A DNA stretch of 64,000 bases. Source: a virus. Location of the stretch: positions 1 through 64,000 of IMG/VR virus record IMGVR_UViG_3300048590_000661; one strand, given 5' to 3'. The position numbers were made by a program, and so were the translations under genes. Below, in pieces: positions 54,341 through 63,998 of the stretch; position 1 is the first letter of the stretch, and each line of letters starts with the position of its first letter. The notes under the pieces were generated by a model, which had not been told where the DNA came from, did no database searches, and saw only the letters and a list, made by a program, of their open reading frames with translations.

Positions 54341-54385
54341 AAGCACTAGCGAATAATATACTAAATAAAGTATTCGCTAGTGCTT
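54341..54385. terminator. Perfect 15-bp terminator between convergent units
   Basis: AAGCACTAGCGAATA (54341-54355) pairs with 54371-54385. It ends the late operon right after the endolysin stop. The last codons of the leftward HNH gene at 54361 lie inside it, so it serves both sides. Confidence 0.88.
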
Positions 54386-55338
54386 TCTATATAATAATGT
54401 TCAAAAGCTTGTATTAATGCGTCCCTGTATTTCCATTCTTCCCCCATCCAAGTTTCTAATTCATTAAGGGTATTAGTCTTTGTTCCGTAAGTAGAATGAA
54501 AATTTTTGTGACACGGTTCGCAAAGCGTAATCAAATTTGAATGTTCATCAAATAATTTTAAATAAGTAGTTAAATCATAAATGTGGTGAACTGCTTTGCG
54601 ATGCTTCTTAGTTCCACAATTTTGACATTGGACATTGTCACGTTGACGAATTAATTTAACAGGCACTCTATCTCTGTAGTCTTTTTTAGTTGCGTTATCT
54701 AGCTTCTCTGCTTTCCAACTAGTACTTTTGCTACCCGAATTACTTTTATTTACATCAATTCGTAAGCATCCACATGATTTTGTCGTATTGCGTGATAGTG
54801 AGTGCCCGCTAACAATGACCTTACTACCACAATCGCATTCGCAATTATATTTCCACCCCTCGTTTTTTGTAATTTCATATCTACTAACTACTAATAATCG
54901 CCCAAATTTTTGCCCTGTTAAATCATTAGAATGAGCGCACTTAACACAAGAATAACTTTTGTTTTTATTTGTTAAACTAGAAATCTCAACTTTGTATAAA
55001 TTATTACACTTTAAGCATTTGCACGAAAAATATCTGCGTGACTTACCATCTTTGCCTACTTTTTTATCTAACTCTTCTATTACTTCCCAATTTTTAAATA
55101 TATCCCCAGGATTAATAACTAATTGCTTAGCTAATCCGTTACATTTTTTGCAGCAAAAATCAACATTAGGATTAACTAAACTACTAAGATAAATTGTATA
55201 ATTAATGCCACATTTCAAACATTTACACAAAAATGACCTAGACTTAACTCCATTTTCTGCACCACGCTTATCTACTTCCTCAATTACTTCCCAACTCTTG
55301 AATATATCTCCAGGTTTAACATCCCATTTTTGGGCCAA
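54361..55338 (-). CDS. HNH homing endonuclease with duplicated zinc-ribbon domain
   Basis: A 325-residue relative of the nucleases at 1795 and 61501. Here the N-terminal Cys-rich module occurs twice in tandem (PGDIFKSWEVIEEV...LCKCLKCG...CCKKC and PGDIFKNWEVIEEL...CKCLKCN...CVKC). Then come the GQKFGRLLVV module (ending SCGC) and HNH (IRQRDNVQCQNC, KAVHHIYDL, NLITLCEPCHKNFH). The start is TTG at 55338, fixed by AAGGAG 7 bases upstream. It lies at the very end of the leftward cluster and abuts the terminator. Mobile passenger. Confidence 0.87.
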   Translation of the reverse strand: MAQKWDVKPGDIFKSWEVIEEVDKRGAENGVKSRSFLCKCLKCGINYTIYLSSLVNPNVDFCCKKCNGLAKQLVINPGDIFKNWEVIEELDKKVGKDGKSRRYFSCKCLKCNNLYKVEISSLTNKNKSYSCVKCAHSNDLTGQKFGRLLVVSRYEITKNEGWKYNCECDCGSKVIVSGHSLSRNTTKSCGCLRIDVNKSNSGSKSTSWKAEKLDNATKKDYRDRVPVKLIRQRDNVQCQNCGTKKHRKAVHHIYDLTTYLKLFDEHSNLITLCEPCHKNFHSTYGTKTNTLNELETWMGEEWKYRDALIQAFEHYYIESTSEYFI

Positions 55339-60038: not shown

Positions 60039-60844
60039 GCCTTAATACTTTCATCGGACATTTCATCAGGCATAGTTTTATTAATAATAACCCTATGCGC
60101 TTGGTTGTTTGCTTTAATTTTCATACGCTTCTTATTAACCCTATCTAGTAAGTTACCGTGTCTATCAGTGTCATAATCGAGCATCCAAACTACGTTATCT
60201 AACCCACTTAAGTATTCAAACTGAGCATTAGTAGGCCCAAACGATAGCCCAGCAAATAGGTTATAACTAATGCCTACCTCTTTACTTACTTGCCAAAATC
60301 GCATAACTGACCAAGCACCCTCAAAGATAATAGTCTGATGTTCTGGATTAAATTCGTGTATATTCCAAAATGGACACGGTGTTTCTATATAAAGTTTTTT
60401 ATATTTTGGTTTGCGGTTAGCGTACCTAATTAATGAGCCTACTCTAATGTTACTTTCGTTTTTAATAGGGATAATTATGTCATCGTTAATGACTTCTAAA
60501 CCAAAATAACGAGCGGTTTCTTTATTGATATTTCTAGAGTTAATATAGGGCGTATATTTCTGCCGTCCTACTGTTTTCAAAAAGTCGTCATGGTCTAGTC
60601 TTTGGTCATTATTTGTGAATAAAATTGGATCAGCATTCTCTAAGTAAAACTGTTTTTCATCTTCAGAATAGTTATTATAATTTAACCAGTCCCCAATACC
60701 ACCACCAATATGAAGACTATACCACCACCACCTATTTTCTTCGGGCCAGATAATAAGGGAATCGTGTTGACTAGTTGATAAAATACCATTACCAACACGT
60801 ACTATTTGATATTGTTCTGCAATTAGGTTAACAAGATCGCTCAT
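60017..60844 (-). CDS. DNA primase with TOPRIM domain
   Basis: A 275-residue DnaG-like primase. The N-terminal part is a degenerate zinc-binding-like domain without the usual Cys set (SLIIWPEENRWWWYSLHIGG, IGDWLNYNN). The C-terminal TOPRIM domain has the acidic EG (TIIFEGAWSVMRFW, about 165) and DYDTDRHG (about 213-220). It would make RNA primers for the helicase encoded at 63015. A perfect promoter overlaps the upstream CAP gene. Confidence 0.82.
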   Translation of the reverse strand: MSDLVNLIAEQYQIVRVGNGILSTSQHDSLIIWPEENRWWWYSLHIGGGIGDWLNYNNYSEDEKQFYLENADPILFTNNDQRLDHDDFLKTVGRQKYTPYINSRNINKETARYFGLEVINDDIIIPIKNESNIRVGSLIRYANRKPKYKKLYIETPCPFWNIHEFNPEHQTIIFEGAWSVMRFWQVSKEVGISYNLFAGLSFGPTNAQFEYLSGLDNVVWMLDYDTDRHGNLLDRVNKKRMKIKANNQAHRVIINKTMPDEMSDESIKACLGYIN

Positions 60845-60850
60845 ATCAAT

Positions 60851-60879
60851 ATTATACTACACTTTCTATAATTTGTCAA
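60851..60879 (-). promoter_or_regulatory. Perfect consensus sigma-70 promoter for the primase
   Basis: Read leftward: TTGACA (60874-60879), 17-base spacer, TATAAT (60851-60856). It overlaps the CAP gene stop and would start a transcript at the primase and the genes behind it. Confidence 0.93.
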
Positions 60880-61421
60880 GCACCACATTTTACGATGTGA
60901 ATCACCCAAAAGTAGTTGTTATGCCCTTCACTCATACTTATACCTATTTGGTTAGCTTCTTGAAAAAAACTTGTTAATCCTAACAATATATTTTTATGCC
61001 TTTGACTATTCATAAGTGAATTAAATGCTACTGTTGGGTCTTTTGTGCCAATTACTAAAACCTCAACGAAATTACCTTTATCTTCATAAGGAATTTTACA
61101 CCCGAACCTTTTAACAATTTCATTAGGATGCTCGCCTGTAGGACTGATATGCGTATAATAATTTTTAAGAGCCATATCATTAGTTTTATATGATGATGAC
61201 TTATATAAATTTTGGTTACAAGCAAGTACCCTTTTTTGTTCAGGATGCTTAATTACTAAGTTAAAAAACTCTAACTCATTATCAGTAAAATCACATGGGT
61301 TAGTTTTCTCCCTATTAAAAGCTATTGGTATATATGTAGTATATGGTAATGTATCGCCTTGCATATGTACTCCTGGTACTAGTACTATTAAAAATACTAG
61401 TACCGATAAAATATTTGCCAT
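60876..61421 (-). CDS. Secreted CAP/SCP-domain protein
   Basis: A 181-residue protein with an N-terminal signal peptide (ILSVLVFLIVLVPGV) and a CAP (SCP/PR-1) fold: DMALKNYYTHISPTGEHP, NFVEVLVIG, NSQRHKNILLG, NNYFWVIHIV. The two His and Glu of the family are present. The short TYIPIAFN segment near residue 30 resembles YLP-type motifs. CAP proteins act outside the cell; the role in a phage is unclear, perhaps in virion entry or host interaction. Confidence 0.78.
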   Translation of the reverse strand: MANILSVLVFLIVLVPGVHMQGDTLPYTTYIPIAFNREKTNPCDFTDNELEFFNLVIKHPEQKRVLACNQNLYKSSSYKTNDMALKNYYTHISPTGEHPNEIVKRFGCKIPYEDKGNFVEVLVIGTKDPTVAFNSLMNSQRHKNILLGLTSFFQEANQIGISMSEGHNNYFWVIHIVKCGA

Positions 61422-61492
61422 TATTTCTGGAAAACTATTACATTAGCAGGTAGCCCATCTAGCAGATATTCTACTTTATCTAATTGTAATTT
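61421..61492 (-). pseudogene. Remnant of the macro gene 3' end
   Basis: Twenty-three codons read KLQLDKVEYLLDGLPANVIV and end FQK-stop. They match the macro gene's own C-terminus (VEYLLEGLPANVLIFKLK) but are diverged. There is no start, and a TGA lies just upstream (61493-61495). The stop overlaps the CAP start codon (TAATG), as if this were the original 3' end of the macro gene before the HNH gene entered. Confidence 0.8.
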
Positions 61493-61500
61493 TCAAGTAA

Positions 61501-62286
61501 TTAAATTTGACATGATTTTAAAACTCCCAATAATTCATTGCGATATTTATATTCTTTATTAGTAAATTTTTCTAAATCGTCTAATGTATTAGTTAGTTTT
61601 TTAGGGTATATTTTATGAAAGTCTTCATGGCAAGTTTTGCAAAGTGTGAGTAAATTATATGGCTCAAATTTTAAGTCTGGATAGGTAGCAAAATCAAATA
61701 TATGGTGAACTTCTAAATACCCGCTACATTGGTTACATTTTTGGCATGTATAACCGTCTCTTTCGCGAATTAATGGATTGATTTGTTTTTTTAATATGGC
61801 TCTATCTAATTCGTTTTGAGGGGATATTTTACTATCCCCCTTCCATTTAGGGCTTGCTTCACCAACATTTAACTTATTTCGATTTATTGTTACATCTCTG
61901 TTATAGCATCCGCAAGATTTTGTATCTCCATTTTTCAAACTAAACCCAACAATTACTTTTTCATTTCCGCATGTGCATTTGCATAAATAGTGCCAGTCAC
62001 TACTATTATTTTGTGAATGTTTTGCTATTACTGTCAATCTACCAAATTTTTGCCCTACTAATTCATCAGCTTTAATGGCGTGCCTTTTTGATGTGGCGCA
62101 ACTAGTGCAACAAAAACTATAAATTTTACTTGTTAAACTACTTAATGCAACATCATATTCTCTATTGCACAATAAACATTCACAACGAAAATATCTATTT
62201 TTGCATTTTTTATCTATCTCTTTAATTACTTTCCAATGTTTATTTGGAAGTACTTCACCTGTGGTAATCTCTATAATTCTGCGCAT
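61501..62286 (-). CDS. HNH homing endonuclease inserted at the macro gene
   Basis: A 261-residue member of the same family as 1795 and 54361: a zinc-ribbon part (NREYDVALSSLTSKIYSFCC, CCTSC), the GQKFGRLTVIAKH module ending SCGC, then HNH (IRERDGYTCQKC, LEVHHIFDF, NLLTLCKTCHEDFHKI). It lies 4 bases after the stop of the macro gene and is followed by a remnant of that gene's 3' end, showing insertion. The copy is close in length and sequence to the 1795 copy. Confidence 0.88.
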   Translation of the reverse strand: MRRIIEITTGEVLPNKHWKVIKEIDKKCKNRYFRCECLLCNREYDVALSSLTSKIYSFCCTSCATSKRHAIKADELVGQKFGRLTVIAKHSQNNSSDWHYLCKCTCGNEKVIVGFSLKNGDTKSCGCYNRDVTINRNKLNVGEASPKWKGDSKISPQNELDRAILKKQINPLIRERDGYTCQKCNQCSGYLEVHHIFDFATYPDLKFEPYNLLTLCKTCHEDFHKIYPKKLTNTLDDLEKFTNKEYKYRNELLGVLKSCQI

Positions 62287-62290
62287 TTGA

Positions 62291-62740
62291 TTATTTTAAT
62301 TTAAATATTAATACATTAGCCGGCAATCCTTCTAATAAATATTCGACATCGGCAATTCGCAAATTACCAAGCCCAATTCCAGGGTAAACAATGCCAATTA
62401 ATTTACTTCTATTTGCATTAGCAAAAATTGTTAATTTACTTAGTGCAAATTTAATAATTTCTACACTACTATTGTCTTTAAAATGGTATTTAGTTTGTAA
62501 TGCTCCAATTCGATATTCTGAATTAAATATAAACCCATAAGAATATACACCATTAGTTTTCTTATAGTTAGCCATAATATCACTGCCTAAAAGTGATGGT
62601 AAATAGGGGTACATATCCTTGACTATCCTAGCTGTGCCAGCACCCATTACTAAGTGACCATTACTTTTAACAACACCATTACTTGTAAAACACTTTACAT
62701 CCACATTGGATGTATATAGGTCTTCATAGATTATGTTCAT
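62291..62740 (-). CDS. Macro-domain-like protein
   Basis: A 149-residue protein with the macro pattern: MNIIYEDLYTSNVDVKCFTS, GHLVMGAGTARIVKD, GALQTKYHF and IVYPGIGLGNLRI. Macro domains bind ADP-ribose and related ligands. The start at 62740 is used because it avoids overlap with the gene before it; 62788 is an alternative. Its 3' end has a diverged second copy behind the HNH gene. It may process NAD-derived signals, perhaps linked with the SLOG protein. Confidence 0.75.
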   Translation of the reverse strand: MNIIYEDLYTSNVDVKCFTSNGVVKSNGHLVMGAGTARIVKDMYPYLPSLLGSDIMANYKKTNGVYSYGFIFNSEYRIGALQTKYHFKDNSSVEIIKFALSKLTIFANANRSKLIGIVYPGIGLGNLRIADVEYLLEGLPANVLIFKLK

Positions 62741-62744
62741 AGTT

Positions 62745-62999
62745 TTATTGATGATAGATATTTGGTAAATATAATTGACATACGCCATTAACCATATCTG
62801 TACACCCCTTTTCTGGTGTATTAGTGTTCGTTGGTAACGGTTGCAATGTAATACTAATCTTTGTGTTTGTTGGCGTTGGGGTTAACGTAAATAAACTAAG
62901 TGTAGGAGTAACTTGCACCATAGCCACACTATTTGTAAACCCACTATTCATAATTAATACTACAAACCCAATAGTTAGTAATGCTAAAAACTTATTCAT
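62745..62999 (-). CDS. Secreted Thr/Pro-rich protein with YLP-type C-terminus
   Basis: An 84-residue protein: signal peptide (FLALLTIGFVVLIMNSGF), a Thr/Pro/Asn-rich spacer (TLTPTPTNTKISITLQPLPT, TNTPEK) and a short C-terminal unit ending QLYLPNIYHQ with a Cys pair. The combination of Thr-Pro repeats and a YLP-type end is common in Chloroflexota secreted proteins. The role in phage biology is unknown; surface binding is possible. Confidence 0.7.
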   Translation of the reverse strand: MNKFLALLTIGFVVLIMNSGFTNSVAMVQVTPTLSLFTLTPTPTNTKISITLQPLPTNTNTPEKGCTDMVNGVCQLYLPNIYHQ

Positions 63000-63014
63000 T
63001 ATATTCCTTTTCTA

Positions 63015-63998
63015 TTAAAAACCAGCTTGCCCTTCAAGCTCAACTAAATTATACCATTCTACTTTCATTTCATCCCAATTAAATTTAGCGTATATTGATG
63101 CCTTGTCACCATTCCTATTTTTACTACTATAATATTTGAAGTAATTTTCTCCATTAATGGTTACAGCACTACTAGCTGTCATATTGACTGCATCTTGCCC
63201 AATACTATATGCTAACCCTAAATCTTCTGGCGTAGGTTCATCCGTTTTTGCTGCCCCACGATTCCCTTGTGTAACTGCAAAAACAGGGATTTCATGGTTA
63301 AGCGTAAATAATCTAACGTCCCTGCTAACTTCACCTAATTGTACCGTTTTTTGTGATTGGTCAATTGCGTTTCCTTTACCCATTAAATGTAACCCATCAA
63401 TAGCAATAACATCAATTGGTGTATCTAAGTTCTCTAAAATAGGCAATAGTTGACTAGGGTGTGAAATTGTGCCAGCTACCTTAATACGTGGTCCGGTGTT
63501 CGTCTCAGAGTTAAGTGCTACTAATTTATTTCGCTGCTCATCTGTAAATTTTAAGTTGCGGAATAGTTTAGGATTAATCCCTAAACGCATAGCATCTAAC
63601 TTTGCAATAAATTCTCTAGGTGCCATTTCATTAGAGAATACTAAGATATTTTGGTTTTGTGTTTTGTGTAATTTATGTAGTAGATATAATAATAGATTAG
63701 TTTTACCATTCCCTAGCGCACCAAAGATAATATTATAATCACTACTGTGTACTCCACCGAATGTATCATCAAACCATTTAATACCAAATGGGATACGAGC
63801 AGATTCGTCTAGATGTAAATTGCGGTCAAAATCATCATAATCAATAATATCAATTCGTATTGGCTGGCATTTTTTTGTAATGTCTAACAAAAATCCAGGT
63901 TCGTAAATATTTTGTCCACTTTGTTGTGCATTGAGTATTTGGCTCTTAATATACCCTTCTTGTCTATCATTTATGATTGTATCTACAGCGTATTCCAT
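63015..63998 (-). CDS. DnaB-type replicative helicase (possible partial)
   Basis: A 327-residue RecA-like motor: Walker A FGALGNGKTNLLLY (about 92-105), FSNEMAP, Walker B VIAIDGLHLMG (about 196-206), and a C-terminal FAVTQGNRGAAKTDEP loop. This follows DnaB-family helicase C-terminal domains. The first ATG visible is at 63998, two bases from the window end, so the true start may be outside. With the primase it forms the replication pair. Ring-shaped 5'-3' unwinding is the family function. Confidence 0.85.
   Translation of the reverse strand: MEYAVDTIINDRQEGYIKSQILNAQQSGQNIYEPGFLLDITKKCQPIRIDIIDYDDFDRNLHLDESARIPFGIKWFDDTFGGVHSSDYNIIFGALGNGKTNLLLYLLHKLHKTQNQNILVFSNEMAPREFIAKLDAMRLGINPKLFRNLKFTDEQRNKLVALNSETNTGPRIKVAGTISHPSQLLPILENLDTPIDVIAIDGLHLMGKGNAIDQSQKTVQLGEVSRDVRLFTLNHEIPVFAVTQGNRGAAKTDEPTPEDLGLAYSIGQDAVNMTASSAVTINGENYFKYYSSKNRNGDKASIYAKFNWDEMKVEWYNLVELEGQAGF

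Follow-up and report, generated by a model that had tools for sequence, protein, structure and literature searches.

Organization of the macro-HNH-CAP locus

The locus lies in a virus record of 124.6 kb and 33% GC from IMG/VR (IMGVR_UViG_3300048590_000661), the first 64,000 nucleotides of which constitute the analysed stretch, hereafter the window. Genes for a terminase, a DnaE-like polymerase, a DnaB-like helicase, and a primase are present in the record. On the minus strand, a macro-domain gene is followed by an HNH endonuclease gene, a start-less remnant, and a gene of the CAP superfamily. The features are listed below in window coordinates.

62291..62740, minus strand: macro-domain gene, 149 aa, with a DarG/TARG1-like fold (PHROG 335, E 1.8e-16)
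62291..62362, minus strand: macro 3' end in use, encoding LRIADVEYLLEGLPANVLIFKLK and the stop, proposed to be a donor-supplied replacement
61501..62286, minus strand: gene encoding an HNH endonuclease of 261 aa whose N-terminus carries zinc-finger-like CxxC repeats (Pfam HNH_2, E 1.1e-4; many PHROG HNH families)
61490..61500, minus strand: junction of the HNH stop and the remnant, TTACTTGAAAA, the predicted neighbourhood of the cut site at the macro G-x-G codons, as placed from the position of the PGIGxG loop in alignments
61421..61492, minus strand: start-less remnant of a diverged macro 3' end, encoding KLQLDKVEYLLDGLPANVIVFQK and the stop, proposed to be the former native end
61419..61423, minus strand: TAATG, in which the TAA of the remnant overlaps the CAP ATG (61421)
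60876..61421, minus strand: CAP-superfamily gene, 181 aa, the downstream neighbour (Pfam CAP, E 8.4e-4, just under the cut-off; PHROG 16914, E 1.5e-5)

The first-pass annotation had stated that the macro gene ends directly before the HNH gene and that a start-less remnant behind the latter overlaps the CAP start with its stop, and both statements hold. The macro stop (62293-62291) and the HNH ATG (62286) are 4 nt apart, and an upstream in-frame ATG at 62788 is a less likely alternative start of the macro gene. The HNH stop (61503-61501) is separated from the CAP start by 79 nt, which contain the remnant frame. This frame opens after an in-frame TGA at 61495-61493, has no ATG, GTG, or TTG, and runs for 22-23 codons to its stop in the TAATG (61423-61419). 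We propose, from the arrangement of these five nucleotides, that the TAATG may be the trace of a former overlap between the macro and CAP genes. On the other side of the macro gene, an ORF at 62745-62999 encodes a secreted-looking protein with a TPTPTNT stretch and the C-terminus QLYLPNIYHQ; such YLP endings are common in exported proteins of Chloroflexota and may offer a lead on the host.

In the AlphaFold2 model of the macro protein (pLDDT 97.3), the stretch that is duplicated in the remnant forms the last helix (residues 129-136) and the last strand (residues 143-146) and is, as modelled, structurally integral to the protein. The best solved match in Foldseek is the DarG macrodomain 5m3e with an E value of 3.6e-8 and a TM score of 0.77 (TMq), and human TARG1 is also among the best. 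The macro profile (A4) matches DarG with an E value of 5.5e-17, and the phage residue Lys K84, which is invariant in the phage macro alignment, aligns with a Lys of the DarG motif FPTKKHW. The protein thus combines a macro fold with an aligned catalytic-type lysine, as in DarG/TARG1-type macrodomains. DarG reverses the ADP-ribosylation of DNA by DarT, an anti-phage toxin (PMC11481870), so that, by analogy, a counter-defence role is plausible and the phage macro protein may counter a DarT-type defence.

A second, diverged macro 3' end lies behind the HNH gene

When the two flanks of the HNH gene were compared in translation, the best score was 73, whereas the maximum in 100 shuffles was 53, and the best-scoring pair consisted of the macro 3' end and the remnant. 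The match at the DNA level did not rise above shuffles (28 vs 32), and the evidence is therefore coding similarity. In a search of all six frames of the genome with a macro HMM, for which 74 related macro proteins from outside this phage were used, the remnant ranked second among 4506 stop-to-stop fragments; its E value of 2.1 is weak because the remnant is short (22 residues). It aligns at profile columns 138-159 of 168, the expected C-terminal place. Upstream of VEYLL, the two ends remain homologous over approximately 5 further codons and perhaps as far as the G-x-G motif, which corrects the first-pass annotation. The remnant starts either at the conserved P-G-I-G-x-G loop of macro proteins or immediately behind it. 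Homing nucleases aim at conserved sites such as this loop.

Elsewhere in the genome, C-terminal similarities of comparable or greater strength belong to copies of the HNH and RHH families or to ORFs without gene-like features, which mostly lie antisense to the same families. No convincing start-less copy of a gene end was found 0.2-1.8 kb downstream of any of 4425 control ORFs in other loci, where two start-less hits look antisense or low-complexity. The remnant is of macro origin, and the nuclease gene stands between two ends of the same kind of gene.

That the two 3' ends differ, as the first-pass annotation had noted, is borne out by 8, 2, and 13 changes at codon positions 1, 2, and 3, respectively, over 22 aligned codons. 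The hypergeometric probability of so few changes at position 2 is 0.0015, and from VEYLL onward (17 codons) the counts are 6, 0, and 9. With pS of 0.90 and pN of 0.19 between the two ends, this pattern indicates that both were coding and under selection while they diverged and that their synonymous sites are saturated. A recent local copy of the macro end followed by decay does not fit such a long coding divergence. No exact repeat shared by the macro gene and the flank downstream exceeds 11 nt, so that an artefact of assembly is unlikely.

HNH relatives and comparable loci

The HNH protein has an intact core, in which H194, H195, N211, and H220, together with C181, C184, C216, and C219, are invariant in ten copies, and its match to Pfam HNH_2 is above the cut-off; its structure model is too weak for a structural search (pLDDT 72.5, pTM 0.41). 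Eleven members of the family, 44-60% identical, are encoded in the 124.6-kb genome, one of them a 64-aa fragment. Pairwise dN/dS against the copy at the macro locus is approximately 0.2-0.4 where estimable, so the copies look as if they have been kept functional. At 94-117 kb, five of the minus-strand copies form stand-alone cassettes, which are inserted in antisense orientation to plus-strand operons. In each, the HNH start is overlapped by a small ORF of RHH type, and a palindrome of 35-55 nt immediately follows the HNH stop.

G000 94090-117605, minus strand: five HNH cassettes (L005:14090-15005, L006:3338-4055, L006:6288-7185, L006:9827-10748, and L007:723-1605)

The copy at the macro locus has neither the RHH ORF nor the palindrome and sits inside an operon, flanked by the two macro ends. 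In the translated comparison of flanks, none of the other ten copies in the genome showed a comparable duplication.

Three further features of this family were observed. A decayed cassette at G000 115209-115509 (L006:17209-17509) retains an intact RHH ORF with the HNH gene cut down to a 64-aa N-terminal piece. Two copies, at 54361-55338 of the window and at L005:5260-6015, have a doubled N-terminal zinc-finger-like domain, and repeated DNA-binding domains are known in other phage homing nucleases (PMC10448857). In Staphylococcus phage S-CoN_Ph26 (L344:1160-1986), a related HNH gene has as its neighbour, on the other strand, an annotated Arc-like repressor, and the partnership of RHH and HNH genes may be wider than this genome.

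No close relative of the phage, and hence none lacking the HNH gene, was found in viral contigs, phage records, or sampled bacterial genomes. Searches with the macro, CAP, HNH, DnaB, and DNA polymerase proteins of the viral contigs, the phage records, and 400 genomes from the phylum of an Anaerolineaceae MAG returned distant matches or none, the macro search of the 400 genomes returning nothing, and a search of the viral contigs with the C-terminal peptide pattern gave no match.

The flanks of 54 distinct HNH ORFs from viral loci were compared, and three pairs are credible. At L109:3599-4620 and L106/L107:3617-4460, the arrangement is a mirror image of the macro locus, a related HNH gene there being flanked on both sides by 5' ends of a DNA methyltransferase gene that have diverged from each other. 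The HNH genes of these two loci are orthologous (117 of 183 aligned positions identical), the probabilities of so few second-position changes are 0.018 for L109 and 0.015 for L106/L107, and the upstream piece of L109 matches the N-termini of phage DNA methylases. At the SPPYW-(A/G)L junction itself, the methyltransferase downstream carries a frameshifting insert of 8 nt in L109 and an in-frame TAG in L106, and the gene may be broken or split at both loci. Because the frame is interrupted at the junction, the mirror-image loci are imperfect support for a homing reading. The third pair, at L115:3280-5103, was rejected as a remnant case, its HNH gene being flanked by two complete, diverged tail-protein-like paralogs, and the flank matches of L155 and L148 were set aside because they look low-complexity. 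Neither seven annotated phage HNH loci (L343-L349), some with gaps of 67-80 nt after the nuclease, nor 15 HNH ORFs from bacterial genome contigs showed any flank duplication.

Proposed replacement of the macro 3' end by homing and alternative explanations

The locus is probably best explained by HNH homing in a phage that replaced the 3' end of the macro gene, in the manner of the WHO elements and mORFs of fungi described below. A free-standing HNH homing gene would have entered the macro gene near the codons of the G-x-G loop, 22-25 codons before the stop. During a mixed infection, the enzyme from a donor phage would have cut the macro gene of the recipient at this place, and repair would have copied the diverged macro 3' end of the donor along with the HNH gene. 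The cut gene would thereby have received a complete ending and stayed whole, and it might also have become resistant to the enzyme, as the new ending differs. The old 3' end of the recipient would then have remained behind the nuclease, in its present start-less state and joined to the CAP gene through TAATG.

This homing scheme agrees with the intact HNH core, the junction at a conserved loop, and an order of parts shared with WHO elements and mORFs: the target gene is intact and full-length and is immediately followed by the nuclease gene, a start-less 3' fragment of the target gene lies behind the nuclease, and the two 3' ends diverged as coding alleles. Counting against it are the ten sister HNH copies that lack a duplication, the small size of the remnant (22-23 codons), and the failure to find an HNH-less relative with an empty site in the collections searched. 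A donor fragment used in WHO-type recombination would also look the same here as a recipient remnant. The first-pass annotation had proposed that the nuclease brought its own diverged version of the macro end and left the original as a scar. The anatomy, the codon divergence, the lack of tandem macro genes in 86 loci, and the non-phage precedents favour this proposal; its other parts, namely which end came from the donor and which is native and that HNH cleavage drove the exchange, are inferred. The further claim that the event is caught at base level was too strong, as the junction can be placed only to within approximately 10-15 nt.

Ordinary or illegitimate recombination of mosaic genomes would yield an identical anatomy if a block of macro and HNH genes from another phage had recombined at the macro end, leaving the resident 3' end in place and the HNH gene as a passenger. 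Phage genomes are mosaic and nuclease genes are found at exchange boundaries (PMC10448857), but such an exchange leaves unexplained why the junction coincides with a conserved codon motif and immediately adjoins the HNH stop, and we regard it as unlikely. The two diverged coding ends could also derive from two adjacent macro genes, with an HNH insertion or a nearby deletion having left only the end of the second. However, none of the 86 macro loci from relatives contains a second macro-like fragment, making this origin quite improbable.

The shortness of the remnant, its weak HMM score (E 2.1), and its source in a metagenome contig might suggest chance similarity or an assembly chimera. Set against this, the match is far above shuffles, in the right frame and at the right distance from the stop, and the shared words, all of 11 nt or less, are too short to mislead an assembler, so that such an artefact is extremely improbable. 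Group I introns often house HNH genes, and the nuclease could in principle lie within a group I or group II intron, an intein, or another spliced element of the macro gene. The macro frame, however, is complete and reaches a stop of its own ahead of the HNH gene, and no Rfam intron was matched in 60800-63100 up to an E value of 1, the only hit being a chance snoRNA at 0.96. With a complete frame and no conserved intron RNA core, a group I or II intron was rejected, and spliced elements as a whole have next to no probability.

The closest parallels are the WHO elements at FBA1 of Torulaspora and Lachancea, in which a full-length target gene is followed by the nuclease and start-less 3' fragments, and the replacement 3' end has diverged from the old one (PMC7282813). 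In the model for these elements, FBA1 is cut by the nuclease and repaired on the donor, whose 3' end is thereby copied in together with the nuclease gene, and the old end of the recipient comes to lie behind the nuclease (PMC7282813). The edge of the fragment marks the cut site in WHO elements (PMC7282813), a likeness that is predicted in the present case. WHO elements differ in having an HO-like intein/zinc-finger nuclease in yeast nuclear genes, with cutting shown experimentally and alleles compared, whereas the present case concerns an HNH nuclease in a phage. With its HNH nuclease, the phage element falls outside the WHO family proper, and it may work like WHO elements without being a member.

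The mORFs of fungal mitochondria similarly combine an inserted foreign C-terminal part, an endonuclease ORF, and the native C-terminal part downstream, with mostly synonymous divergence; they occur in atp6, atp9, cox2, and nad3 with diverged ends (PMC3630166, after the Allomyces atp6 case). They differ in their LAGLIDADG or GIY-YIG nucleases, their mitochondrial location, and the identification of the native end from relatives, and an HNH gene in a phage record lies outside the mitochondrial mORFs proper. In T-even phages, free-standing homing genes of the HNH and GIY-YIG types (mob and seg) share the phage setting and homing with co-conversion of flanks, but they are described between genes, and the review of them gives no duplicated gene end (PMC2988022). 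ShiLan-type HNH genes of phage methylases likewise lie within a coding gene and have no known splicing element, but there the HNH frame is hidden out of frame in an uninterrupted methylase frame, and the abstract gives no duplicated end (PMC11855218). The kind of element is thus known in fungi, and our literature search, which was incomplete, found no phage case.

More broadly, some phage HNH nucleases may be WHO-like, carrying a replacement 3' or 5' end of the gene that they cut. Tentatively, and with some doubt, we suggest that they invade conserved coding motifs (the G-x-G loop of macro proteins, SPPYW of methyltransferases) with no intron or intein and so cause gene ends, among them the end of a possible DarT counter-defence gene, to be exchanged rapidly. 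Homing genes that hold conserved coding sites usually rely on an intron or intein to undo the damage, and a nuclease that brings a spare gene end needs neither. If this is true in phages, short start-less fragments beside HNH genes would be markers of cut sites, and nuclease homing would directly rewrite the ends of phage genes, here those of a DarG-like gene that possibly undoes a host defence.
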